The notes under the pieces: generated by a model | Told to the model about the DNA's origin: nothing | The model's input: only the letters and a program-made list of their open reading frames with translations | Database searches by the model: none | Made by a program: the position numbers and the translations under genes | Shown here: positions 8,344 to 49,386 of the stretch, piece after piece | How positions within the stretch are numbered: position 1 is the first letter of the stretch | Layout of the letters: every line of letters begins with the position of its first letter | Origin: Acidobacteriota bacterium | GTDB lineage: Bacteria > Acidobacteriota > Vicinamibacteria > Vicinamibacterales > CAVVIG01 | Length of the DNA: 64,000 bases | Assembly (NCBI GenBank): GCA_018268955.1 | Contig: JAFDVO010000018.1 | Span: forward strand, 52,576 to 116,575 | Direction of reading: 5' to 3'

Positions 8344-9590
8344 AACGACGCACCCTTGTCCTCCTCGTTCTCGCCGCACTGATCGTCGTCGCCGGGGGGC
8401 TCGCCCTCGCACGTCGGGGCCCGAAGGGCACCCTGGTCGATGTCGGCGCCGCCACCCGACAGCCGCAGTTCCGGTCGACGGTCACGGCGTCGGGTGAGAT
8501 CGTCGCCTCGCAGTACGCCGACATCGGCTCGAGCGTGATGGGGAAGATCGTCGCGCTGCCGGTGGCCGAAGGCGACCGCGTGAAGGCAGGACAGGTGCTC
8601 GCGCAGATCGATCGCGTGCAGGTCGAAGCGGACGCGGCCGGCGCCTTCGAGCAGATGAAGGCGCTCGAGGCCGACGAGCGGGCGGCGCGTGAACAGGGAC
8701 GCGCAGCGGAGGCGGACGTGGCCGCGGCGGAGGCACGCGCCCGGGACGCCCAGCAGCAGCTGCAGCGGCGGCAGGCACTCAGCGCCGAGCAGCTCGTGCC
8801 GGCTTCGGAACTCGAATCCGCAAAAGCCACGTTCGATGCCGCGAACGCGCAGCTCGCCGCCGCCCGCGCGGCGGCGGAACGTGCGAAGCTGAGCGTCGAA
8901 ACGGCCACGCGCCGACGCCTACAGGCCAAGGCGCAGCAGGTCCGCGCAGCCGACGTCCTCGCGAAGACCTCTATCCTCTCTCCCATCGACGGCGTCGTGA
9001 CCCGCCTCCGCGTCCGCAACGGCGAGATGGTCGTCGTCGGCGTGCAGAACCAGCCGGGCACGACGCTGATGACAATCTCGGACCTCGGCGCGATCGACCT
9101 CGAGGTGAAGGTCGCCGAAGCCGACGTGCTCGCCGTGCGACAGGGCCAGCCGGCAACGGTCACGCTCGAGGCGCTGCCCGGCAAGGACTTCACGGGCAAG
9201 GTCGTCGAGATCGGCGCGAGCGCACTTCCGGTCACCGGCACTGCGGCAGCCCGCGAGTTCCGTGTCGTCATCCGCATCGACAGCCCCGATCCGGGGCTTC
9301 GTCCCGGCCTCACCGGCGACGCCGAGATCATCACGAGCGAACGGACGAACGTGCTGACCGTGCCGCTCCAGAGCGTGGTGCTCCGCACGGTTGGCGGCCA
9401 GGAGAAGACCGGCGTGTTCACCGTCGCCAACGGCAGGGCGACCTTCGTGCCGGTCACCTCTGGTGTGATCGGGGGGCTGAACATCGAGGTCTCTGGAATC
9501 GCCGAGGGCACCGTGGTGGTGACCGGCCCCTATCAGGTGCTCCGCGATCTGAAGGACGGCCAGCTGGTCGCGGTGATCGGGACGAAATAG
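8340..9590 (+). CDS. HlyD/MacA-type periplasmic adaptor (membrane fusion) protein
   Basis: 416 residues: one N-terminal membrane anchor (LVLLVLAALIVVAGGLALA), a lipoyl/biotin-like half (GSSVMGKIVALPVAEGDRV), a long alpha-helical hairpin rich in Ala/Glu/Arg (about residues 100-200), the second lipoyl half (ILSPIDGVVTRLRVRNGEMV), then beta-barrel and membrane-proximal domains. This is the MacA/HlyD layout: a bridge between inner-membrane exporter and outer-membrane channel. The GTG overlaps the previous stop, and the permease gene follows after 2 nt. Confidence 0.9.
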   Translation: MKRRTLVLLVLAALIVVAGGLALARRGPKGTLVDVGAATRQPQFRSTVTASGEIVASQYADIGSSVMGKIVALPVAEGDRVKAGQVLAQIDRVQVEADAAGAFEQMKALEADERAAREQGRAAEADVAAAEARARDAQQQLQRRQALSAEQLVPASELESAKATFDAANAQLAAARAAAERAKLSVETATRRRLQAKAQQVRAADVLAKTSILSPIDGVVTRLRVRNGEMVVVGVQNQPGTTLMTISDLGAIDLEVKVAEADVLAVRQGQPATVTLEALPGKDFTGKVVEIGASALPVTGTAAAREFRVVIRIDSPDPGLRPGLTGDAEIITSERTNVLTVPLQSVVLRTVGGQEKTGVFTVANGRATFVPVTSGVIGGLNIEVSGIAEGTVVVTGPYQVLRDLKDGQLVAVIGTK

Positions 9591-39164: not shown

Positions 39165-39254
39165 CTGTCGGAGGGCTGCGCCTCCGGCCACGACGCCGCC
39201 CGCATCGATTGCCTCAGGTGGCCTGCAAGCCGTAGGTCCGGGGAGCGCAGGAAA
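39165..39254. other. Left chromosomal flank of the element, no gene
   Basis: Ninety nt with no convincing gene between the 62-residue protein and the left direct repeat. Together with 39271-39365 it may be part of an interspersed repeat, because both direct-repeat-like copies fall within it. Confidence 0.35.
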
Positions 39255-39270
39255 GGCGTCCCCACCGGGA
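39255..39270. other. Left attachment site candidate (copy of tRNA-Glu 3' end)
   Basis: ggcgtccccaccggga is identical to 49312-49327, the 3' end of the tRNA-Glu gene (antisense); with the next four bases 19 of 20 match. A second, 13-nt copy (gtggcgtccccac) occurs at 39353-39365. The 16-nt copy is taken as the element's left boundary. Confidence 0.65.
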
Positions 39271-39519
39271 CTCGGTGCAGCGGCGGCGAGAGCCGGCGCC
39301 AACCGGAAGATCGGTGGTGGATGCCCACGCGACGGAGCGTGAGCGAGGGAGAGTGGCGTCCCCACAAGAGATTGCACCCTTTGCCGCTGACCGCCGCAAG
39401 CTGCCGGTGACCACCCCGTTCGGCATAGCCGGTCGCCTACGCCGGTTCGCCGCCTAGCCTGCCCTTCCTACCCGGACCCGCCAGTGCGACGGCTGGCGGG
39501 TCCCTTCGACCCCTCCTGG

Positions 39520-39549
39520 TTGACCGGCTACCTTCTGTGCCGGGACAAT
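39520..39549 (+). promoter_or_regulatory. Promoter of the Mrr-type gene
   Basis: TTGACC (39520-39525), 18-nt spacer and GACAAT (39544-39549), followed by 7 nt and the GTG. No Shine-Dalgarno is visible, so the message is probably leaderless. Confidence 0.6.
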
Positions 39550-39556
39550 CAGCACC

Positions 39557-40303
39557 GTGTCTGAACACGACCAGCCCGACAGCGGCACGTCCAGCAGTTC
39601 TACGCTCCTTGCGGAATGGCAACAGCACCGGCATGGAACGCTGAATGTCACGCTCGGTGACGTGATCGTCGTCGCAGAAGGGACCGTTGGCGGTCCCAAG
39701 CACTACGTGCTCGACGCCGAGCCGGGCTCCTACGTGATCCAGCCGGCGACGGCCGACCTGAGCATGTCGGGACACGCTCCCGCCGTCGTGATCGCGCCGC
39801 CTGAACTGGCGGTCGGCTTCGTGGTCGAGGGCGAACGCACCGATGAGGGCGTCGCGATAACCGCCGTCACCCCTGTTTGGCGGCAGTTGTTCGAGTCGAT
39901 GTCGCAAAGCACCTCTGCGTTCTACGACCTCGACCCGAGGCAGATGGAAGAACTCGTGGCCGCTGCCTACAAAGCCGATGGCTGGGACGTGACGCTGACG
40001 CCGCGCAGTGGGGATCGAGGACGGGACGTTATCGCTCGCCGTGATGATGTGGGCTCGATCCGAATACTCGACCAAGTGAAACGCTACAAGCCCGGCCTCC
40101 TCGTGACCGCAGAAGAAGTGCGATCGATGGTCGGAGTGCTGAGCATGGACCAGCGGGCATCGAAGGCGTATATCACTACGACGTCCGGATTCGCGCCGCG
40201 TGTCGCTGAGGAAGTCGCCGCCTTGACGCCTACTCGTCTGGAGCTGCGTGATGGGAATGCACTCCGCTCGTGGCTCATACGTATTCTGCAGAAACGACAC
40301 TGA
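39557..40303 (+). CDS. Mrr-type restriction endonuclease
   Basis: 248 residues. The N-terminal half has no motif I recognise. The C-terminal half is an Mrr_cat domain of the PD-(D/E)xK fold: MEELVAAAYKADGWDVTL, then the acidic residue in SGDRGRDV and the Q-x-K in ILDQVKRYKPG, ending AYITTTSGFAPRVAEEV. Mrr enzymes cut modified or foreign DNA. No methylase accompanies it, so it is a methylation-independent or type IV-like cargo gene. GTG start; a hairpin terminator overlaps its stop. Confidence 0.82.
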   Translation: MSEHDQPDSGTSSSSTLLAEWQQHRHGTLNVTLGDVIVVAEGTVGGPKHYVLDAEPGSYVIQPATADLSMSGHAPAVVIAPPELAVGFVVEGERTDEGVAITAVTPVWRQLFESMSQSTSAFYDLDPRQMEELVAAAYKADGWDVTLTPRSGDRGRDVIARRDDVGSIRILDQVKRYKPGLLVTAEEVRSMVGVLSMDQRASKAYITTTSGFAPRVAEEVAALTPTRLELRDGNALRSWLIRILQKRH

Positions 40304-40329
40304 GGGCGGTTCCCTACGGAACCGCCCTC
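40302..40329 (+). terminator. Perfect 12-bp hairpin terminator after Mrr gene
   Basis: GAGGGCGGTTCC (40302-40313), 4-nt loop CTAC, GGAACCGCCCTC (40318-40329). It starts at the stop codon of the nuclease gene and lies 13 nt before the end of the convergent minus-strand gene, so it probably works in both directions. Confidence 0.75.
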
Positions 40330-40342
40330 GGGCCGTTCGTCC

Positions 40343-40564
40343 CTAGTGCACCTGCTCCATTGCTTCCACCTGTGCCGCGAGGATGGCGATGCGCTGCCCA
40401 ATGGCGTCCTCGGCCACACGATGGAGCATGTAGCACACAGCAGCGATGATGTCGTCGGGACTCTTCATGTCGCGAATCCCACACAGCAGCACGTGATTGA
40501 CGAGTTCGGCATCCATCTCGATGATGATGGGCTCAGTCGGCAGACCAAAGTCGTTATGCGGCAT
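40343..40564 (-). CDS. Small hypothetical protein, second gene of a minus-strand pair
   Basis: 73 residues from MPHNDFGLPTEPIIIEMDAELVNHVLL; mostly helical and acidic. The ATG lies inside the last codons of the upstream gene (11-nt overlap), so translation is coupled. Function unknown; it could be the antidote- or partner-like half of a module. Confidence 0.55.
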   Translation of the reverse strand: MPHNDFGLPTEPIIIEMDAELVNHVLLCGIRDMKSPDDIIAAVCYMLHRVAEDAIGQRIAILAAQVEAMEQVH

Positions 40565-40919
40565 TGACGATCTCCTCGTAGGCGGATTCCACCGCGCTGC
40601 ACAGCTCGTTGAACTCGAAGTAGCGCTCCGTCTTGTCGGCACGCTGCATCAGCTTGTTCGGCGTGATCGGCGCACCCTGCTGTTCGAGCACACGAGCGCA
40701 GAGATCGTCAAAGGACGCGTCGAGTGAGCCGCCGATGCGTTCGGCGACAGCGGGATAGAGATCCCGCATGCGGGTCCACAAACGTGCTTCGCCCGCGTGT
40801 TCACGGATCTTGATGACCCACGCGAGCATCTTCACAACCTTGAGAGCGCGATCTGCCTCCCAGCGGATGCAGAGGCGAGGCGACGAGTAACGAGGCGAGA
40901 CGACTGGTTCGGAATCCAT
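40554..40919 (-). CDS. Hypothetical protein, first gene of a minus-strand pair
   Basis: 121 residues, starting MDSEPVVSPRYSSPRLCIRWE. No signal peptide or motif recognised; helical (ALKVVKMLAWVIKIREHAGEARL). Its ATG directly follows a perfect hairpin at 40920-40967 that contains its Shine-Dalgarno, so expression is probably controlled at translation. It runs opposite to the replication genes of the element. Confidence 0.55.
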   Translation of the reverse strand: MDSEPVVSPRYSSPRLCIRWEADRALKVVKMLAWVIKIREHAGEARLWTRMRDLYPAVAERIGGSLDASFDDLCARVLEQQGAPITPNKLMQRADKTERYFEFNELCSAVESAYEEIVNAA

Positions 40920-40967
40920 GCAGAAAACTCCCTTGCACCCGCAATGGGGTGCGGCAAAGTTTTCTGC
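40920..40967 (-). promoter_or_regulatory. Hairpin covering the Shine-Dalgarno of gene 40919
   Basis: A perfect 10-bp stem (GCAGAAAACT / AGTTTTCTGC) with an inner GCACCC/GGGTGC pairing abuts the ATG. The AAGGGAG ribosome site, 8 nt upstream of the ATG, lies at the inner edge of the 3' arm, where folding would mask it. Confidence 0.55.
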
Positions 40968-41357
40968 GCGTGAGGCTGATCCCTAGCGCTTACTTACTGG
41001 AGGCGAGGTTTGGGTGTCCGTCCGTGAGCTCACGTGTCTTGCGCTCGTCAGACGTTGATGGACATGCAGCCTTCCGGGGCACCTTCCGCATCGTGCGTTG
41101 CGGCGGGCAGCGGCCTCCAGGTCGCCTTGTGTTCCCCGTAGGCGTGAAACCCTAGTCCATTTTGGTTCGGAAGTCAATCCACCCGCCATAAGGTCCGCAC
41201 TTTGGCCGTGTATGCCTGCCGGTGCCGCCAAAATTTGGCTGATAGGCGACCGCCAGGACGTCGCCAGCCACCTACCCCGCACCCTTACCCCTAGCCGCCA
41301 GCCGGTCGCGTATAGGATCGCCAGAACAGCCGAGCCCGCTTTTACTGCTGTGGTAGC

Positions 41358-41381
41358 GGTTTTAAGCAGCGCCTTAAAACC
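41358..41381. promoter_or_regulatory. Perfect AT-rich palindrome (operator candidate)
   Basis: GGTTTTAAG, 6-nt spacer CAGCGC, CTTAAAACC. Followed by ACCTTTAAACC-like sequence. It lies 37 nt upstream of the promoter at 41418 and is a likely binding site for the XRE protein or another regulator. Confidence 0.5.
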
Positions 41382-41417
41382 TTTAAACCTAAGTGCTTAT
41401 TACGCAGGTATTTACGA

Positions 41418-41445
41418 TTGCACACAGACTGCCTTTGTGCATAAT
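41418..41445 (+). promoter_or_regulatory. Promoter of the element's rightward genes
   Basis: TTGCAC (41418-41423), 16-nt spacer, CATAAT (41440-41445). The spacer and flanks include the inverted repeat TGCACA / TGTGCA, a plausible operator. The first rightward gene (XRE) starts about 210 nt further on. Confidence 0.55.
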
Positions 41446-41656
41446 GGTGGTGCGGTCGGCATGGCTTGGCTTATAGCCGGGCTGCGCTAACTGCCGGGCT
41501 GCATGACCCACGGTCTCGCATGTGACCTGCTCGAAGCGACGACCCCGATGAGCAGGTGGGTTGCAGTTCGACTTTCCGCGGGTACCGGGAGCCCAGCGTG
41601 ATGGTCGTCGAATGCGTGAGGGGTCCTCCCTCTCGCCACCTCCATTGGAGGTTCCC

Positions 41657-41890
41657 GTGTTCCGCCCGAAGTTCCTGCGGGCCAAAGCCATCCGCCTTCA
41701 GCGCGGACAGACCCAGAGCCAGGTTGCCCGACTGGCTCACATGTCGCAGCCCACCTACGCTCGCATCGAAGTGGGCCGACTGGTGCCGACCACCGACGAA
41801 CTCGCCCGCATCGCGGCGGCACTGCAGATCGCTGATGCCCTGTCGCTGCTCGACGAGATGAACGCCGAGCCCGAGGCGGTGCAGCCGTGA
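41657..41890 (+). CDS. XRE-family DNA-binding regulator
   Basis: 77 residues forming a single helix-turn-helix domain: RLQRGQTQSQVARLAHMSQPTYARIEVG, then TTDELARIAAALQIADALSL. GTG at 41657 has GGAGG 5 nt upstream; the longer frame lacks such a site. It probably represses the element's own genes and overlaps the next gene by 4 nt. Confidence 0.75.
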   Translation: MFRPKFLRAKAIRLQRGQTQSQVARLAHMSQPTYARIEVGRLVPTTDELARIAAALQIADALSLLDEMNAEPEAVQP

Positions 41891-42123
41891 CGGTGGCCGT
41901 GATTGCCGTTCCCCGTCGCGATCTGCCGCTGGCCCTCGCCTTCTACGGTTCGCAGACGGCACGTATAGAAGGCACGCGTCGCGTGTATCTGCTGCACACC
42001 ACCGACGGACCCATCACGCCGATGGCGTTCCATGATCTCGATGGCGAGCCGCTGGTCGAACTCCGCACCTTCCCGTCTCTGGACGCCGCTCGCCAGTGGT
42101 GCCAGCAGCAGGAGGTGCAGTGA
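41887..42123 (+). CDS. Small hypothetical protein of the element
   Basis: 78 residues from GTG (TVAVIAVPRRDLPLALAFYG), with a predicted beta-alpha fold (LYLLHTTDGPITPMAFHDLDG-like strand region). It overlaps the XRE stop (GTGA) and the primase start (TGATG), so it is part of the replication operon. No family recognised. Confidence 0.6.
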   Translation: MTVAVIAVPRRDLPLALAFYGSQTARIEGTRRVYLLHTTDGPITPMAFHDLDGEPLVELRTFPSLDAARQWCQQQEVQ

Positions 42124-44489
42124 TGAACGCTGCTGCACACGACCTGCTGACGCGATATCGCGATCTCGGGTTCGAACTCGTGTTCTACTCGGCCCGGCGT
42201 AAAGGGCCGACCGATGATGGGTGGCCGAGCGCCGAGTATCGGATTGACGACTACCGCGAGGGCCAGAACGTCGGTGTGAAAACCGGCGTCGAGATCGCAC
42301 CTGGGAAGTTCCTGGGCGACGCCGATTTTGATTGGGCGGACGGCATCCCGATGGTGAAGCGATTCTTCCCATCGACTGCATTCGGCTTCGGTCGCGAGAG
42401 CAAGCCGCTCAGCCACGCTTTCTACACAACGGAAGCGCCGTTCACATCGCTGAAGTTCGACCTCGATAACAAGACCCTCCTCGAACTCCGCAGCCGCAAA
42501 CGGGACGGCACCATCGGCTACCAGACGATGGTCCCACCGTCGCTGCATCCGAGTGGCGAGATGGTCACCATGAAGATGTGCGACAGCCTCGGCCACGTCG
42601 AGGTCAAAGCGTTCGTGCGAGCCGGGACGCTGTATGCCGTGTTCTGCGCCGTGACCTACTGCTTCGGTGTCGGGTCGCAGCGGTTCAAACATGAACCGCG
42701 ACTCGCCTTCGCTGGCTTCCTCCTCGACCTCGGTCTTGAACCCGACGAAGTCATCACGATCGGCGAGTGCGTGGCGGAGTTGACCGGCAACACCGTCGCG
42801 AAGGTTCGCGGCGAGGTCGAGAGCACCGTTGAACGTCGCACCAACGGTGGCGCCGTGACAGGCGGACCGCACCTTGCCGACGCCATCGGCCCGAAGGGCA
42901 AGACGGCCATTACGTTGATCCGCAAGTGGGTCGGCCGCGTTGTGGACGCCACCGAGGGTACCGACCGCGACGAACTCGCCCTGTTGCAGCGCATCGAAGC
43001 ACTGAACGAGCGGTTCTTCATCGTGGATGTCGGCACCGACACGGTGATCGGCGAGGAGATTGAGCACAGCGACGGGCGTCGTCGTTGGTCTGAGTTTGCC
43101 TTCCGATCTTTCGAGGACTTCAAGCGCAAGCTGGTAAAGGAACGCCCGGTTCCGCAGAAGGGCCGTAAGCCAACGGCGTTCGCGGAGCTCTGGCTGCAAC
43201 ACGAGAGGGGGCGGCAATATGACCGGCTGGTCTACGCGCCGCCGGGTTCGCCGGTGACCGTGGGGTCAAAGGATCTTCAAGGCTGGCGTGGTTTCACCGT
43301 GGAACCGGCACCGGGTGACTGGTCGCCTATCGAGGAGTTCATCCTCGACATCATTTGCGACGGCGACAAGGATCTCGCATCGCTGACGCTGGACTGGATG
43401 GCGGCGCTCGCCCAGAAGCCGGGCCGTCACGCGGAGACTGCACCGGTCGTGATCGGCGGGCAGGGCACCGGCAAGAACTTCTGGGCTGAGACGGTGCTGG
43501 CGCACAGCTTCGACGGTCGCCACGCCAAGGTCACGACCAATACTCGGCAGATCGTCGGCGAGTTCAACAAGCTGCTGTCGGGCACCTGCCTTGTCGTGCT
43601 GAACGAGGCCGGGCTGACCACGCAGGCCGAGGTCAACGCTATCAAGGGGCTGATCACGGCTCCAACGGTGTTGATTAACCGCAAGGGTATCGACGCCGTG
43701 GACGAGCCATCGATGCTGCACTTCATCTTTCTGTCGAACGCAGGTCCCGGCTCGGTGATGAAGATCGAGCCGGACGACCGTCGTTTCATCTTCTACAAGG
43801 TGTCGGAGCGCCGCAAGGAAGACATCGCCTATTTCGCATCTCTGTATCGCCATCTGGAGAACGGCGGTCGAGCCGCCATGTTGGACGCGCTCCTTCGTCG
43901 TGACGTCAATTGGGACCGACTGCGCATCGCACCTCGCACTGCACCCAAACAGCAGGCCAAGCGGGCGAACTGGAGTCCCGTCACGTGGTTCCTCTATCTG
44001 CAGATGCGGGAGCTGGGACAGGACCATTGGGCGAACTTCGAAATGAAGAACGACCGCGACCGAACGAAGGTTCGGCGTGTGGTGAAGGCAGACCTCGCTC
44101 GTGAGTATGGGTTCTATCTGCAACACCAGCTGAAAGCCCGCGACCTTCCGGGCGATCCGCAGACAGTGCTCCAGGACGCGTTCCGGGCGATGTTCGCCGC
44201 CGACGGTGACACCGCCGAGTGGAATTTCAATCGGCCGGTGAAGGTTGAAGGTGTCGCGACCCGAGACTTCTGGACCCTGCCCGACTGGGCCGACTTCAAG
44301 GCTCGGTTCGCCAAGTTCTGCGGCGACTCGTTGGACGACTTGGAGATCTCCGATGCCGAACAGCAGTCGGCCTATGAAGGCGAGGCGGTCCCGACGTCCA
44401 AGGAGGCCGAGGAGGCCGAGGCGAGGGCGAAGGCAGCAGTCGGGGCGTTGATCGGGCAGTCGGCGTTGGCCGTCGAGGAGCCGATGTGA
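42123..44489 (+). CDS. Primase-polymerase/helicase of the element
   Basis: 788 residues. The N-terminal third looks like a primase-polymerase domain (GVKTGVEIAPGKFLGDADFD, with the D-x-D metal motif, and LLELRSRKRDGTIGYQT). The C-terminal part is a DUF5906/SF3-like helicase with Walker A VIGGQGTGKNFWAETVL near residue 445, then LVVLNEAGL and LSNAGPG segments. Such fused proteins start replication of plasmids and satellites. The ATG overlaps the previous stop. The iteron cluster follows it directly. Confidence 0.85.
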   Translation: MNAAAHDLLTRYRDLGFELVFYSARRKGPTDDGWPSAEYRIDDYREGQNVGVKTGVEIAPGKFLGDADFDWADGIPMVKRFFPSTAFGFGRESKPLSHAFYTTEAPFTSLKFDLDNKTLLELRSRKRDGTIGYQTMVPPSLHPSGEMVTMKMCDSLGHVEVKAFVRAGTLYAVFCAVTYCFGVGSQRFKHEPRLAFAGFLLDLGLEPDEVITIGECVAELTGNTVAKVRGEVESTVERRTNGGAVTGGPHLADAIGPKGKTAITLIRKWVGRVVDATEGTDRDELALLQRIEALNERFFIVDVGTDTVIGEEIEHSDGRRRWSEFAFRSFEDFKRKLVKERPVPQKGRKPTAFAELWLQHERGRQYDRLVYAPPGSPVTVGSKDLQGWRGFTVEPAPGDWSPIEEFILDIICDGDKDLASLTLDWMAALAQKPGRHAETAPVVIGGQGTGKNFWAETVLAHSFDGRHAKVTTNTRQIVGEFNKLLSGTCLVVLNEAGLTTQAEVNAIKGLITAPTVLINRKGIDAVDEPSMLHFIFLSNAGPGSVMKIEPDDRRFIFYKVSERRKEDIAYFASLYRHLENGGRAAMLDALLRRDVNWDRLRIAPRTAPKQQAKRANWSPVTWFLYLQMRELGQDHWANFEMKNDRDRTKVRRVVKADLAREYGFYLQHQLKARDLPGDPQTVLQDAFRAMFAADGDTAEWNFNRPVKVEGVATRDFWTLPDWADFKARFAKFCGDSLDDLEISDAEQQSAYEGEAVPTSKEAEEAEARAKAAVGALIGQSALAVEEPM

Positions 44490-44500
44490 TGGCTTCGGCG

Positions 44501-44784
44501 GTAACAGTCGGTTACGGGTCGGTTACAGGACCGGGTGTAACCGGTTTGTGCCCGGTTTTGCTGGAGTTTCCGGGCTGGTTACAGGGTTACACCTTCTCTC
44601 TTAAAGGTGGGCCAGTAATACACAGCCACCCGCACAGCCACCCGGAACCGGGTGGCAATACCGGCGGCGGGTTTGGAGCCTGTAACCCCTGTAACCCTGT
44701 AACCCGCGACAAATGGTCAATGTTTACCGGCCCAAACCGGTTACGCCGCGACCGTAACCGCCACCTGCCGTTGCCTGTAACCGG
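44501..44784. other. Iteron cluster around a palindrome (candidate replication origin)
   Basis: At least eleven GGTTAC/GTAACC units. On the left half they mostly read GGTTAC (44510, 44521, 44577, 44585), on the right half mostly TGTAACC (44681, 44690, 44698, 44776) plus both orientations at 44739 and 44754. The tightest copies are spaced 8-9 nt. A perfect 20-bp palindrome (GCCACCCGG-AA-CCGGGTGGC, 44637-44656) lies between the halves. This inverted layout next to a primase-helicase gene is typical of a replication origin. Confidence 0.7.
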
Positions 44785-44859
44785 CACGCCAGCACAGCGG
44801 CACGCAGACGGCCAACGCTTGATGCCTGCCCTTCACAACCAGCACACGGAGCGCACCCT

Positions 44860-45384
44860 ATGAGCGATCTGGTCGGCAAGCGCGGCCGAATGGCCCTCGC
44901 CGAATCACGCCAGTGCACCGCGACCAATCGCAACGGCGAGCGGTGCGGACGTGCCTCAATACCTGGCGGATTCGTCTGCAACCTGCATGGCGGGAACGCT
45001 CCGCAGACGCTGAAAGCGGCGCAGCAGCGATTGCTCTCGCTGATCGAACCGGCTCTCGACGTTCTGCACTCCATTCTGCGCATCGCGCCTGCCTGCACGG
45101 TGTGCGGCCGTCGCGATGACCTCAGCGCCGTGGTCGCAGCGGCCAAGGCCGTGATCGACAGGGTGCTCCCCAAGCTCCTCGACGTGCAGGTGTCACGCGC
45201 ACCGGAACCCGCGCTCTGGGTGGACTACATGCCCGAGGACCAACTGACGCAGGTGGTGACGTGGATCGAGGAGGCCGAGGGTCGCATGCGTCGCGGCGAA
45301 CGTGCCTTCTACCGACCGACGGCACCCGTGATCGACGTGCCGAGCACCGGCACTAACGACGCGGATGACTCGGTGCTGCTGTAA
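44860..45384 (+). CDS. HGG-motif protein (phage/element accessory)
   Basis: 174 residues. The N-terminal zinc-binding motif is CTATNRNGERCGRASIPGGF and then VCNLHGGNAPQ, a pattern found in many phage and element proteins; a second C-x-x-C occurs at CTVCGRRDD, followed by a helical region ending in an acidic tail. Role unknown, possibly DNA packaging or regulation. Confidence 0.6.
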   Translation: MSDLVGKRGRMALAESRQCTATNRNGERCGRASIPGGFVCNLHGGNAPQTLKAAQQRLLSLIEPALDVLHSILRIAPACTVCGRRDDLSAVVAAAKAVIDRVLPKLLDVQVSRAPEPALWVDYMPEDQLTQVVTWIEEAEGRMRRGERAFYRPTAPVIDVPSTGTNDADDSVLL

Positions 45385-45412
45385 GGGTCATGCCCCAAGG
45401 GGATTTGTCCAT

Positions 45413-45853
45413 ATGTCCGCTAACCCTATGAAGCCCGATCCTTTAGACACACCCCGAGCCGTGCTCGCCCGGTTCCGAGATCGCGGTCTCGAGTTCCGCG
45501 TCGAGGGCAATCGCCTTCGCGTCCTGAACGGCTGGCGCACCCTGCCACGTGAGGACCGCGCTGTGATCGAGCGCCACCGCAGCGCGTTGATTGTGCTGGT
45601 GGCTGCCGAACAGCAGAACGCGGCGTCCACACCACCAGCACCGCCGGAGCCGGCACGACCGGCCATCGCACCAGCGGAGTACGGCTCGCTGGGTCTGTAT
45701 GTGTTGAACGGCGTGGTGACCCACGCTCTCGGCGACCAGTTCGCCGCCGATGTAATCGCCGGACGCATCTCGCGTTCCGAAGCACTCGACATGCAGCAGA
45801 CCGCCGAGCGCACCAAGCGTGCCCTGCGGAATGCGAAACCTTGGAGGATCTGA
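45413..45853 (+). CDS. Element protein with N-terminal TubC-like docking domain
   Basis: 146 residues. The N-terminal part (PLDTPRAVLARFRDRGLEFRVEGNRLRVLNG ... REDRAVIERHRSALIVLVA) matches the small domain seen at the N-terminus of some primases and docking proteins, then a proline-rich linker and a helical C-terminus. AAGGGG lies 10 nt before the ATG. Overlaps the next gene (TGATG). Confidence 0.6.
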   Translation: MSANPMKPDPLDTPRAVLARFRDRGLEFRVEGNRLRVLNGWRTLPREDRAVIERHRSALIVLVAAEQQNAASTPPAPPEPARPAIAPAEYGSLGLYVLNGVVTHALGDQFAADVIAGRISRSEALDMQQTAERTKRALRNAKPWRI

Positions 45854-46266
45854 TGGCTGCAACAAAGGAAGAACTCGCCGCTCGTATCGCCGCCGTGAAA
45901 GCGCGGACCCGGCCCGGCAATGGGCAGGTGCCGCAGATGCGTATCGCCTGTGCTGCACCGTCACGGACGCCGACGCCGACACCGACACCGACTGCTGTCG
46001 CGCCGACCACCGAGGAGGCACCTCCGCCCGAGCCTGTGCCCTCGACGCTGATTCGCAAAGTGCTCGCGAACCGCGAGCGTCCCACCGAGGACGCGAAGAC
46101 GCACTACGTGCGCAGCTTGCTCAAGGCCATGACGCCGCGTCCGCCGGAGCCCGATCCTGCTCCACGTCAGCTCCGCGTCACGCGTGCCGCCACGGAAGAC
46201 GACGTGGCTCCGCCCGCTCCGCCGAGCGTGATCGACAGGATCCAGAAGATGCGAGGTGCCAAGTGA
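45853..46266 (+). CDS. Hypothetical Pro/Thr-rich element protein
   Basis: 137 residues. It starts MAATKEELAARIAAVKARTRPG, has a Thr-Pro repeat (TPTPTPTPT) and a later helical segment (THYVRSLLKAMTPRPPEPDP). It probably has a disordered middle. It overlaps the genes on both sides. No function assigned. Confidence 0.55.
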   Translation: MAATKEELAARIAAVKARTRPGNGQVPQMRIACAAPSRTPTPTPTPTAVAPTTEEAPPPEPVPSTLIRKVLANRERPTEDAKTHYVRSLLKAMTPRPPEPDPAPRQLRVTRAATEDDVAPPAPPSVIDRIQKMRGAK

Positions 46267-46766
46267 ACGACTATCGAGATCCCGTTGCCGAACGCGAGGC
46301 CGCGAAGTGCCTCGACCTGCTCACCACCGTCCAGCAGTCCCTCGACGCCTTGACGCCCGAGCGTGATCGGCTGGTCGCCAAGCGCGATGCGATCCGCGAA
46401 GCCATGCGCACCCGTGACGTGAACATCGACGAGTGCACTCGCCAGATCGAGGTGATCGAGACGGACATTCGCGCCATCGAAAACGGCTATCCCACCAGCA
46501 CTGGCTCGCCTGCCGTGTGGAAGCTGATGGAGGGGAAGCCGGGCATCACGTCGCTGGAGCGCCGCATCGCGCAGCTTCGCGCCGAACACGCCGAGTGGCA
46601 GCGACGGGCGACGTGGAATCCCGACGCCAAGGGGCAGTATCGCTTCGTCGGTCGCTACGCCAACTACACGCACCCCGACGGGCACCGCGTGATGCCCGGC
46701 GAGGTGGTCGAGTTGACCAATCGACAGGCCGAGAACTGGCGCGACCTGTTTGAGCCTGTGAGTTAA
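46263..46766 (+). CDS. Coiled-coil element protein, paralogous to 47248
   Basis: 167 residues: a coiled coil (AKCLDLLTTVQQSLDALTPERDRLVAKRDAIREAMR), then ENGYPTSTGSPAVWKLMEGKPG, which matches the C-terminus of the 79-residue protein at 47248 (DLGFPTTAGTLEVWDLMKERPG). The remainder is basic and aromatic (WQRRATWNPDAKGQYRFVG). GTG start overlaps the previous stop. Function unknown. Confidence 0.6.
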   Translation: MNDYRDPVAEREAAKCLDLLTTVQQSLDALTPERDRLVAKRDAIREAMRTRDVNIDECTRQIEVIETDIRAIENGYPTSTGSPAVWKLMEGKPGITSLERRIAQLRAEHAEWQRRATWNPDAKGQYRFVGRYANYTHPDGHRVMPGEVVELTNRQAENWRDLFEPVS

Positions 46767-46834
46767 GCGGAGGGGACGTCGGCAGGTGCCGGGTGTGCGC
46801 CTGACTTCGCAAAACCATCGTTGGTCCCCTCCGC
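46767..46834. repeat. Inverted repeat after the element's accessory operon
   Basis: GCGGAGGGGAC (46767-46777) and GTCCCCTCCGC (46824-46834) form an 11-bp stem around 46 nt. A second pair CCATCGTTGG (46815-46824) / CCAACGATGG (46892-46901) overlaps it. It may be a terminator or recombination-related site. Confidence 0.45.
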
Positions 46835-46986
46835 CAGTCCGTCGCTGCGTTCGTTCTTCGCAGGGTCGAATGCACCGGGCTGACCATGTTGCCAACGATG
46901 GAACACCTCTGGCCTCTGGGCGCGAAGGCCAGCGTTAGCCGAGGCGGTCTTCCTTGTTCACCCCCGCCGTGCGGCACGCGCCCGCT

Positions 46987-47187
46987 TTATGCGCAGCAGT
47001 CCGACTGTTGTGGCGGACAGCGTTGATCGCCGTAGGAGCAGAACACGCAACAGTCGCCGGGCTTGGGACGCAATAGCTGCCCGCACGCTGTGCATCGATA
47101 GAAGAACACGCAGGCATTTGTGGGCATCGTCTCGATGGCGGAATGACCACACACCGGGCACGTGATTGTTGCCCTTTGCGTCTGCAC
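46987..47187 (-). CDS. GDCC-motif double zinc-ribbon protein
   Basis: 66 residues from GTG 47187. Pattern: ITCPVCGHSAIETMP, FFYRCTACGQLLRPKPGDCC and VFCSYGDQRCPPQQ. The GDCCVFCSYG motif marks a small conserved family that I have seen in genomic islands. A -10 TATACT 6 nt before this GTG supports the start; a longer frame begins at 47211. Role unknown (metal handling or redox is possible). Confidence 0.65.
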   Translation of the reverse strand: MQTQRATITCPVCGHSAIETMPTNACVFFYRCTACGQLLRPKPGDCCVFCSYGDQRCPPQQSDCCA

Positions 47188-47193
47188 AGCGCG

Positions 47194-47199
47194 AGTATA
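47194..47199 (-). promoter_or_regulatory. -10 TATACT of the GDCC zinc-ribbon gene
   Basis: TATACT followed by 6 nt and GTG, the same leaderless spacing as in several chromosomal genes. Confidence 0.5.
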
Positions 47200-47247
47200 C
47201 CGCCGCGACACACTGCCCGTGCCATACCCAGATGTGAGGTGACTCTA

Positions 47248-47487
47248 ATGCCGACCCAGGTTGATACCGACCGCATTGCCGCATTGCAGGCCATGCGCGC
47301 CAGCCGCGTTGCCGAACTCGAGACCATCGACGCCGCTAGCGATTACGGCAATCCGCGCCGTGGCCTGCTGCTGGCCGACATTGCCGCCCTCGACCTCGGC
47401 TTCCCGACCACGGCGGGAACGCTGGAGGTGTGGGACTTGATGAAGGAGCGGCCCGGCCTGCTCGACTTGCAGCGTGTGGCCGGGTAG
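47248..47487 (+). CDS. Small element protein, partial paralog of 46263
   Basis: 79 residues. GAGGTGACTCTA precedes the ATG. The N-terminus (MPTQVDTDRIAALQAMRASRV) is helical and the C-terminus shares the G-[YF]-PT-[ST]-x-G...VW-[KD]-LM motif with the 167-residue protein at 46263. Function unknown. Confidence 0.6.
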   Translation: MPTQVDTDRIAALQAMRASRVAELETIDAASDYGNPRRGLLLADIAALDLGFPTTAGTLEVWDLMKERPGLLDLQRVAG

Positions 47488-47569
47488 CGGCGAGCTGGTG
47501 ATTGTCCGCGCCGATCGGCGACGGCCACAATTAGGGCATGAACCAAATCGCACCGGAAAGGATGCATGT

Positions 47570-49351
47570 ATGAGAGCAGCAATCTACGCTCGCCGGTCAA
47601 ACGAGCAGACCGGCCGAAGCGAGGAAAGCAAGTCGGTAACCCGGCAGGTGGAAAATGCTCGCGCCTTCGCCACCGCTCGCGGTTGGACGGTGCTGGACGA
47701 GCACGTTTACGTGGATGACGGCATTTCGGGTGCTGAGTTCGATCGGCGCCCCGGTCTGCAGAAGCTGCGTGCTGCCTGTGACCATCGGCCTCCGTTCAAC
47801 GTGCTGATTGTGTCGGAGCAGAAGTCGCTCGGCCGCGAAGCCTACGAGACCAACTTCCTGATCAAGGAGCTGGCACAGAGCGGCATCGACATCGTCGAGT
47901 ATGTGCACGGTCGTTCGCTGGTGCCGAAGACGTCGCTCGACAAGGCGCTGTCGTCCATGCAGTCGTTCGCGGATGAAACACACCGCGAACAGACCCGCGA
48001 GCGTGTGCATGAAACCCACAAGCGGCTCGCTTCCAAGGGGTTCGTGACCGGTGGTCGCGTGTTCGGCTACCGGAACGTGGACATCTGCTTCGGCGAGGAC
48101 GCGCACGGTCGCCCCTTGAAGTCGCACGTCGAGCGCCGCATTGTGCCCGAGGAAGCTGCCGTGGTGGTTCGCATCTTCGAGATGTATGCCGCTGGTGACG
48201 GGCTGAAGAAGATCGCGAAGACGCTGACCGTCGATGGTGCCCCGAAGCCTGCACCTTTTGCTCGCAAGGACGGACTGGCACCTGTGGCCGCGTGGTCACC
48301 CTCGACCATCCGCACCGTGCTGTGTCGCGATCTGTATCGCGGTCGCGTGGTCTGGAACCGCAGTCGCAAGCGCGATGACTGGGGACAGGTGGACCAGAAG
48401 CCGCGACCGGCCGACCAGTGGGTCGAGACCACGGTCGAAGAGTTGCGCATCGTCTCCGATGACCTCTGGCATCAGGTGGCGAGCAGGCGCGCCGACGTCG
48501 AGGGTCGCACCGTGCGGTTCGCTAGCGGTCGCCTTTCGGGACGGCCACCGAAGCACGAGGCTCGCAACCTGCTGGCCGGATTGGCCACCTGCGGTCTGTG
48601 CGGTGGAGGCCTCGTCGTCGAGACCACCAAGCGGAAGAACGGCCGACGCGCCGAGTATGTGTGCCACCGGCACCGGCACACCGGCGTCTGCAAGAACGAT
48701 TTGCGGTTCCCCGCCGACCTGCTGAACGAGCAGATTCTCGCGGACGTCGAGGCGCATGCGCTGACGCCCGAGGCCATCGAGCAGGTGGTAGCCCTGTCTG
48801 AACGTGACGATCTCCGCGAACGGCACGAATCGTTGACCAAGCAGATTGCCGACAAAGAGAAGCGGGTCGCGAACCTGCTCGAACTGCTCGAACTCGGTCG
48901 CGGTCAGGCCACGCTGCTGGACAAGCTGGCCGAGCTCGAAGGGCAGGTGGTGGATCTGAAGCGAACGCTTGCTGATCTGCAGCCGGTGCCGCGAGTGCCG
49001 CGACAGGTGCTGGAGGACCGCCTGAACGACTGGCGGCGACTGTTGCGCCAGAGCACCACACAGGCTCGCGCTGTGTTGCAGCGGGTGCTGGCCGGGCGCA
49101 TTGTGTTCACGCCTCGCGGTGAGAGCTATGACTACCGAGCCGAGACCCGCTTCGATCGGCTGTTCGCCGGCTTTGTCGTGAAGGTGCCGCAGCCTGCACT
49201 CGGGCTCGACTGGTCACAGCCTGCCGCTGAAGGGCTGGAGCACCTGCGACCGGAGGACTGCATCGACTACGACTACGGCAAGCTGTTGGAGCGGTTCTGC
49301 GGTAAAGGGGTGGCGTCCCCACCGGGATTCGAACCCGGGTTTCAGCCTTGA
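47570..49351 (+). CDS. Large serine recombinase (integrase)
   Basis: 593 residues. N-terminal resolvase domain with catalytic Ser10 (AAIYARRSNEQTGRSEESKS), the DDGISGAEFDRRPGL segment, a recombinase domain (VVRIFEMYAAGDGLKKIAKTLT), a zinc ribbon near residue 341 (CGLCGGGL ... EYVCHRHRHTGVC), and a coiled coil. It is positioned to integrate the element at tRNA-Glu. The last 14 residues (GVASPPGFEPGFQP) come from the antisense strand of the tRNA, and its TGA lies in the anticodon region. GGAAAGGA precedes the ATG. Confidence 0.93.
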   Translation: MRAAIYARRSNEQTGRSEESKSVTRQVENARAFATARGWTVLDEHVYVDDGISGAEFDRRPGLQKLRAACDHRPPFNVLIVSEQKSLGREAYETNFLIKELAQSGIDIVEYVHGRSLVPKTSLDKALSSMQSFADETHREQTRERVHETHKRLASKGFVTGGRVFGYRNVDICFGEDAHGRPLKSHVERRIVPEEAAVVVRIFEMYAAGDGLKKIAKTLTVDGAPKPAPFARKDGLAPVAAWSPSTIRTVLCRDLYRGRVVWNRSRKRDDWGQVDQKPRPADQWVETTVEELRIVSDDLWHQVASRRADVEGRTVRFASGRLSGRPPKHEARNLLAGLATCGLCGGGLVVETTKRKNGRRAEYVCHRHRHTGVCKNDLRFPADLLNEQILADVEAHALTPEAIEQVVALSERDDLRERHESLTKQIADKEKRVANLLELLELGRGQATLLDKLAELEGQVVDLKRTLADLQPVPRVPRQVLEDRLNDWRRLLRQSTTQARAVLQRVLAGRIVFTPRGESYDYRAETRFDRLFAGFVVKVPQPALGLDWSQPAAEGLEHLRPEDCIDYDYGKLLERFCGKGVASPPGFEPGFQP

Positions 49352-49386
49352 AAGGGCCGCGTCCTAGGCCTCTGGACGATGGGGAC
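49311..49386 (-). tRNA. tRNA-Glu (anticodon UUC)
   Basis: 76 nt on the minus strand with encoded CCA. Acceptor GTCCCCA/TGGGGAC, anticodon arm CGGCC-CTTTCAA-GGCTG with anticodon TTC, T-arm CCGGG-TTCGAAT-CCCGG. The 3' end is the integration target and overlaps the integrase gene by 41 nt. Confidence 0.97.
49312..49327. other. Right attachment site within tRNA-Glu 3' end
   Basis: ggcgtccccaccggga, identical to 39255-39270, covering the 3' part of the T-arm and acceptor stem. The intact tRNA is kept on this side. Confidence 0.65.

Follow-up and report, generated by a model that had tools for sequence, protein, structure and literature searches.

A serine integrase of tRNA-Glu elements in Acidobacteriota that probably exchanges its own C-terminus, and a putative degradation tag, upon integration

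We analysed a 64-kb window (G000:C9:52576-116575) of the 4.77-Mb draft genome of an Acidobacteriota bacterium, in which an element of 9,957 bp (39353-49309) occupies the 3' end of a tRNA-Glu gene. The explanation that we favour, and that taken as a whole we consider rather probable, is that the element was inserted into this gene by a large serine integrase (Int), that it is a satellite of phages, and that it carries an integration-dependent switch acting on the integrase. Int made from the excised circle would end in an ssrA-like degron and Int made from the integrated copy in a stable tail encoded by the tRNA, with proteolysis as the step that we infer.

The geometry of the integrase gene (int) carries this explanation. 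All three domains of a large serine integrase are found in one protein (Pfam Resolvase, 1.8e-19; Recombinase, 2.2e-19; zinc ribbon, 1.7e-10), whose gene abuts and overlaps the tRNA-Glu gene, bearing out the original prediction of a serine integrase beside an intact tRNA, and whose reading frame passes through the att core. Integrated Int has 593 amino acids and ends ..GVASPPGFEPGFQP, its C-terminus GFEPGFQP being read from the tRNA, and the circle form obtained by joining attR and attL in silico has 614 amino acids and ends ..GVASPQEIAPFAADRRKLPVTTPFGIAGRLRRFAA, with the C-terminus GRLRRFAA (excised tail, ASPQEIAPFAADRRKLPVTTPFGIAGRLRRFAA; integrated tail, ASPPGFEPGFQP). Since the frame runs through a core shared by both ends, recombination at that core exchanges the C-terminus, as can be read off the sequence, and attP is placed inside the 3' end of the integrase's own gene.

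The ends of the element differ in part from those first proposed. The 16-mer GGCGTCCCCACCGGGA, corresponding to the tRNA-Glu 3' end, occurs exactly twice in the 4.77-Mb genome, at window positions 39255 and 49312, and had been taken as the flanking direct repeat; both copies exist, but the boundary on the left is not the copy at 39255 but a 13-bp core, GTGGCGTCCCCAC, at 39353-39365. A joined query of 179 nt (39251-39365 plus 49323-49386) was recovered whole in the relatives G060 (82%) and G050 (77%), where tRNA-Glu is in each case immediately followed by the ~98-bp unit (39255-39352). As unit and tRNA form one stretch there, the unit is chromosomal, the 16-bp repeat at 39255 is ruled out as attL, and the join lies at 39353/49310. 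In G050 neither an integrase of the tRNA-Glu clade nor an element in that tRNA was found, and G050 is a natural empty site of a relative. This empty site, the precise att repeats and the many genomes with a related integrase at this tRNA support the predicted ~10-kb tRNA-Glu element, except that its left end had been misplaced. No empty site came from the same species; the only genome of the same genus gave no tRNA-Glu match, and cheB synteny was discarded as a guide because the cheB homologues of the relatives do not adjoin tRNA-Glu.

Relatives of Int (37-56% identity) were present in 16 of the 193 genomes examined from the class; a sample of 396 genomes of the phylum contained them only within the same order. 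In most of them tRNA-Glu(ttc) comes immediately after int, and the int frame runs through the core as ..(V/L/M)ASP.GFEP.F.. to a stop inside the tRNA. Copies of the core delimit elements of 9.6 kb in G094, 10.7 kb in G164, about 13.5 kb in G060, about 20-21 kb in G075 and G030, and 15.5 and 8.9 kb in a tandem pair in G065; a core copy was also found for G029. The G065 pair sits in a single tRNA-Glu (L040/L041, G065:C37:11593-35952), and its inner attL doubles as the end of the outer int, so that the outer Int ends in -AA (..VHVKRQAA) although the element is integrated. The original prediction had singled out a serine integrase at a tRNA as noteworthy; such integrases recur in the host order, at tRNA-Glu, tRNA-Met and tmRNA, and what surprises is rather the overlap of integrase and att site. 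In the tmRNA case (L201) the reading frame of the integrase runs on at its end into the tmRNA gene (..RRRESNPRPKI..).

Eight elements that share the common reading frame could be mapped, namely that of the window, G065A, G065B, G060, G094, G164, G029 and G075. Besides that of the window, the circle tails are ..VHVKRQAA (G065A), ..TALRVA (G065B), ..PIRQHAA (G060), ..RLLIAAA (G094), ..VTRHLAA (G164), ..AYRRIA (G029) and ..VAGSAA (G075). All eight end in A and six in AA when read in the int frame, against none of 16 readings in the other two frames, and the baseline for AA endings is 6.9% of 406 coding open reading frames (ORFs) and 2.2% of random reads to a stop. Clade integrases in IMG/VR that have no tRNA at the int end were expected to display the excised tail directly, and the eight that could be read end in KVA, RRAA, RRAA, RAA, KAA, MAA, RRAA and QTA (A in all eight, AA in six); L180, which reads into tRNA-like sequence, was left out, and L176 and L177 still hold the tRNA-Glu core inside int. 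A further 16 copies of the core, selected by the pattern TGGCGTCCCC[AG][AC] blind to the tail and lying mostly in elements cut by contig ends, gave AA in the int frame five times (SDLKAA, FRGFAA, VVRRAA, RFQRAA and TRMEAA) and RVA once, compared with AA in one of 32 readings in the other frames. The alanine codons, the stop codons and the distance from core to stop (19-33 codons) all vary among the tails, so a fixed DNA motif in attP is ruled out as the source of -AA and selection would act on the protein. In G030, where int and core have opposite orientations, the circle form ends ..GIVMVA and the integrated form ..GGDATR.

Several observations weigh against this explanation. Every circle form is a join made in silico, and the swap itself is a reading of sequence. 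The tails share ancestry, so binomial values based on the counts overstate their independence. Hydrophobic residues and Arg/Lys are also abundant in the tails, which could instead be structural or control directionality. Mapping is ambiguous in G075, with two candidate attL copies that both give AA, and in G060, where a second, shorter candidate gives a tail not ending in A. Finally, G015, G080 and G026 read the core in another frame and have long integrated tails, their own attL assignments being insecure.

How the exchange might act is suggested by a tmRNA tag of the host order, which ARAGORN gives as ANTQLALAA (L201); as this tag ends in LAA, proteins ending in -AA could plausibly be ClpXP targets in that order. 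If the -AA tail works as an ssrA-like degron, Int from the circle would be short-lived, and this would limit integration or re-integration, whereas Int from the integrated copy would be stable and could carry out excision as soon as a directionality factor is present.

In serine integrases the direction of recombination is known to be controlled by C-terminal parts of the protein, and the swap might be real but set this direction, with the attP-encoded tail serving attP x attB and the tRNA-encoded tail either disfavouring that reaction or permitting only attL x attR together with a directionality factor. The hydrophobic stretch followed by Arg/Lys before the AA in the excised tails, and the conserved SWNQ..WL..DGLR tail in G075 and G029, point this way, but most tails cannot be aligned except for the terminal -AA, and a length that ranges from 19 to 33 codons is more easily reconciled with a signal at the very end than with a folded part, leaving direction control an unlikely account of the tail. 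Less likely still, the overlap may be a matter of location only and -AA a functionless ancestral ending that regulates nothing; PMC4557955 does describe C-terminal proteolysis signals in other phage integrases (that of BPs), so that such an ending need not be linked to att, but none of eight unrelated phage serine integrases ends in AA, and here tails that cannot be aligned keep this ending, spelled by different codons, even though the tail is swapped out in every integrated copy.

Beyond the tRNA-Glu clade, we lean towards the view that the tRNA-targeting serine integrases of this order switch themselves, a crossover within int trading an ssrA-like degron for a tRNA-encoded tail. The half-life of the recombinase (or its direction) would then report the state of the chromosome, and at least two integrase clades that are only distantly related, those of tRNA-Glu and tRNA-Met, would have retained the arrangement. 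The latter, a distant clade met as a control, reads into tRNA-Met (..VAGAGFEPATFGL), and its two mappable circles end in ..CWAAA and ..WQTVA; in the members from G079, G016, G050 and G015:C54 no usable second core copy was found. A more distant relative from IMG/VR (L234) ends in ..WTARAA. The tRNA-Met clade loci L206, L209, L211, L212 and L213 have the same tail-swap geometry. The integrase of Rhizobium phage RR1-A (L229) has a tRNA-like core followed by the ending VVAGERFEQSPQIILGRFVA, and this may be an instance of the switch in an isolated, cultured phage.

The other half of our explanation concerns the nature of the element, whose features are listed in Table 1. It has an integrase, a regulator, its own primase and candidate origin, a size within the satellite range of 8-15 kb and no complete set of virion genes; TerL is lacking, and no capsid, tail or conjugation gene was found by Pfam or PHROGs, the latter in agreement with the original prediction, whose primase-polymerase/helicase with iterons and Mrr nuclease were likewise recovered (the primase-helicase matches DUF5906 and phrog_1156). 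Two more cassettes with the same PrimPol N-terminus exist in the source genome, on contigs C29 (L011) and C20 (L012). They keep the gene order of the element: a homologue of the ORF at 41887 comes first, then the primase, then a protein of HGG or NUMOD type with the C-terminal motif VID..P, then homologues of 45413 and 46263; L011 also has a homologue of 45853. They differ in their integration genes and in swapped helicase C-termini. Siblings or relatives have one head gene each: L011, whose integrase is of the tyrosine type, has a head-decoration gene, L013 (a relative in G068) a scaffold gene, and L041 (element B of G065) a maturation protease. Relatives of the regulator occur in L012 and in element B of G065. 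When genome contigs were searched with the PrimPol N-terminus, a single locus was recovered.

Phages in IMG/VR with the same PrimPol (L141, L142, L146 and L148) carry TerL, portal and head genes; their PrimPol is followed by a small gene and then by TerL, portal, protease and decoration. The small gene that L146 has between primase and TerL is a homologue of the HGG protein with weak similarity to small terminases (TerS; phrog_2538, 0.0018), and TerL of Microbacterium phage Neferthena has the HGG gene directly upstream of it. From the satellite-sized cargo, the gene in the TerS position and the single head genes of the siblings we infer that the element is a phage satellite with a TerS-like adaptor, which agrees with the satellite-like type first suggested. 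The PrimPol-helicase would replicate it at the iterons, a helper phage would package it through the HGG protein, and Mrr would be accessory defence cargo. As counterweights, the case for HGG as TerS consists of weak similarity and position, and no helper phage was identified.

That the element is instead a decayed prophage, in which PrimPol, HGG and regulator were left behind when an L146-like phage lost its late genes, is suggested by the pairing of the same PrimPol with TerL, portal, protease and decoration genes in the IMG/VR phages and by the HGG homologue of L146. We think this improbable: all ORFs are open, the order of the small genes (41887, 45413 and 46263, plus 45853 in L011) is maintained in both own-genome siblings next to other integrases and helicase C-termini, the phage contigs showed none of these small genes (the 46263 family had no match in phages), and related tRNA-Glu elements repeatedly measure 8.9-15.5 kb. 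A self-replicating integrative plasmid or mobilizable element, as the original prediction also envisaged in proposing a plasmid-like class, is more doubtful again. The PrimPol-helicase and the iteron array speak for it; against it, no relaxase, DNA-translocation transfer or partition gene was found by Pfam/PHROGs, which sets the element apart from integrative and conjugative elements, their actinomycete type (AICE) and integrative and mobilizable elements, and the siblings carry phage head genes.

Table 1. Features of the tRNA-Glu element and its borders (window coordinates)
Feature	Position	Strand	Basis or remark
Chromosomal tRNA-trailing unit, outside the element	39255-39352	+	Contiguous with tRNA-Glu in G050 and G060
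16-bp copy of the tRNA end, outer edge of the trailing unit	39255-39270
attL core GTGGCGTCCCCAC, left boundary of the element	39353-39365	+	Identical to 49310-49322
Detached 3' part of int, encoding the Int tail QEIAPFAADRRKLPVTTPFGIAGRLRRFAA-stop of the circle form	39365-39457	+	In-silico circle junction
Mrr-type restriction endonuclease, probable accessory defence gene	39557-40303	+	Pfam Mrr_cat, 1.4e-21
Small ORF, no function assigned	40343-40564	-
ORF, no family by Pfam/PHROGs	40554-40919	-
Helix-turn-helix regulator (HTH_3/HTH_31)	41561-41890	+	Probable start nearer 41660
Small conserved ORF coupled to the primase	41887-42123	+	49% and 37% identity in the own-genome siblings
PrimPol-like N-terminal domain and DUF5906/phage primase-helicase C-terminal domain	42120-44489	+	N-terminal domain by motif, common to both own-genome siblings
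Iteron-like GTAACC/GGTTAC array, candidate origin	44510-44782		11 of the 17 hexamers in the window
HGG-motif protein, proposed small-terminase-like packaging adaptor	44860-45384	+	phrog_3678
Conserved cassette protein	45413-45853	+	45-51% identity, two own-genome siblings
Conserved cassette protein	45853-46266	+	63% identity, sibling L011
Coiled-coil protein	46263-46766	+	Conserved C-terminal PGEVVEL..F
Possible small zinc-ribbon protein	46987-47211	-	Cysteine pairs in translation
Large serine integrase (int)	47570-49351	+	Resolvase, Recombinase, Zn_ribbon_recom
attR core GTGGCGTCCCCAC, within int	49310-49322	+	Covers the tRNA 3' end
tRNA-Glu(ttc), intact target	49311-49386	-	C-terminal residues of integrated Int are read from its antisense strand

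An Rfam search found nothing besides the tRNA. A sequence similar to the trailing unit follows tRNA-Ser in the source genome, and related sequence follows tRNA-Met in other genomes; in the host order units of ~100 bp, each with a copy of the 3' end of the preceding tRNA at its border, follow tRNA genes (window 39255-39352; L090, ~9200-9290; L092-L095), and they are possibly a repeat family. In the 21-kb tRNA-Glu element of G030 an ORF of 2042 amino acids (L043, 8860-14988) stands beside a TerL-like gene and is possibly a fused structural polyprotein, and a large restriction-methylation-like gene adjoins the cassette of L012.

Integration-dependent control is known for phage repressors and, if our explanation is true, would act here on the integrase itself, so that a single protein would keep a simple record of the element's state, integrated or free. 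A prediction that can be tested follows for all tRNA-targeting serine integrases, and the prediction of att sites could be aided, the excised tail being expected to end in -AA in the int frame. Integrases taken from integrated copies may also bear the wrong C-terminus, which is relevant to DNA-integration tools. We found no earlier report of an attP inside int or of an integrase degron switch in the open literature, and subscription journals may hold one.

Among known systems, phiC31, Bxb1 and A118 have the same Resolvase, Recombinase and zinc-ribbon domains and core repeats flanking the element, but here attB lies in a tRNA end, attP lies inside int and the C-terminus is swapped. Phage-inducible chromosomal islands (PICIs) and P4-like satellites resemble the element in a length of ~10 kb, in an integrase gene placed at an end, in regulator, primase-helicase with iterons, TerS-like gene (putative in the element) and defence cargo, and in the single head genes of its siblings; they differ in that the integrase here is a serine integrase, TerS is assigned by position and weak similarity, and no sequence relationship to known PICIs has been shown. 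The phages L141, L142, L146 and L148 share the PrimPol N-terminal domain, and L146 the HGG protein, but possess the TerL, portal and head genes that the element lacks. The closest parallel in logic is the integration-dependent immunity of mycobacteriophages BPs and Brujita (Broussard et al. 2013, as presented in PMC4557955, PMC9934374 and PMC6109161), where attP lies in the repressor gene and the viral form bears an ssrA-like AA tag that is lost on integration. Both have the attP core in the 3' end of a gene, with a tRNA gene as frequent target, both drop a C-terminal -AA tag on integration and take their new end and stop codon from host DNA (here on the predicted junctions), and tandem elements with remnant tails are known; in the mycobacteriophages, however, the gene concerned is the immunity repressor, whereas here it is a serine integrase, in satellite-sized elements of another phylum.

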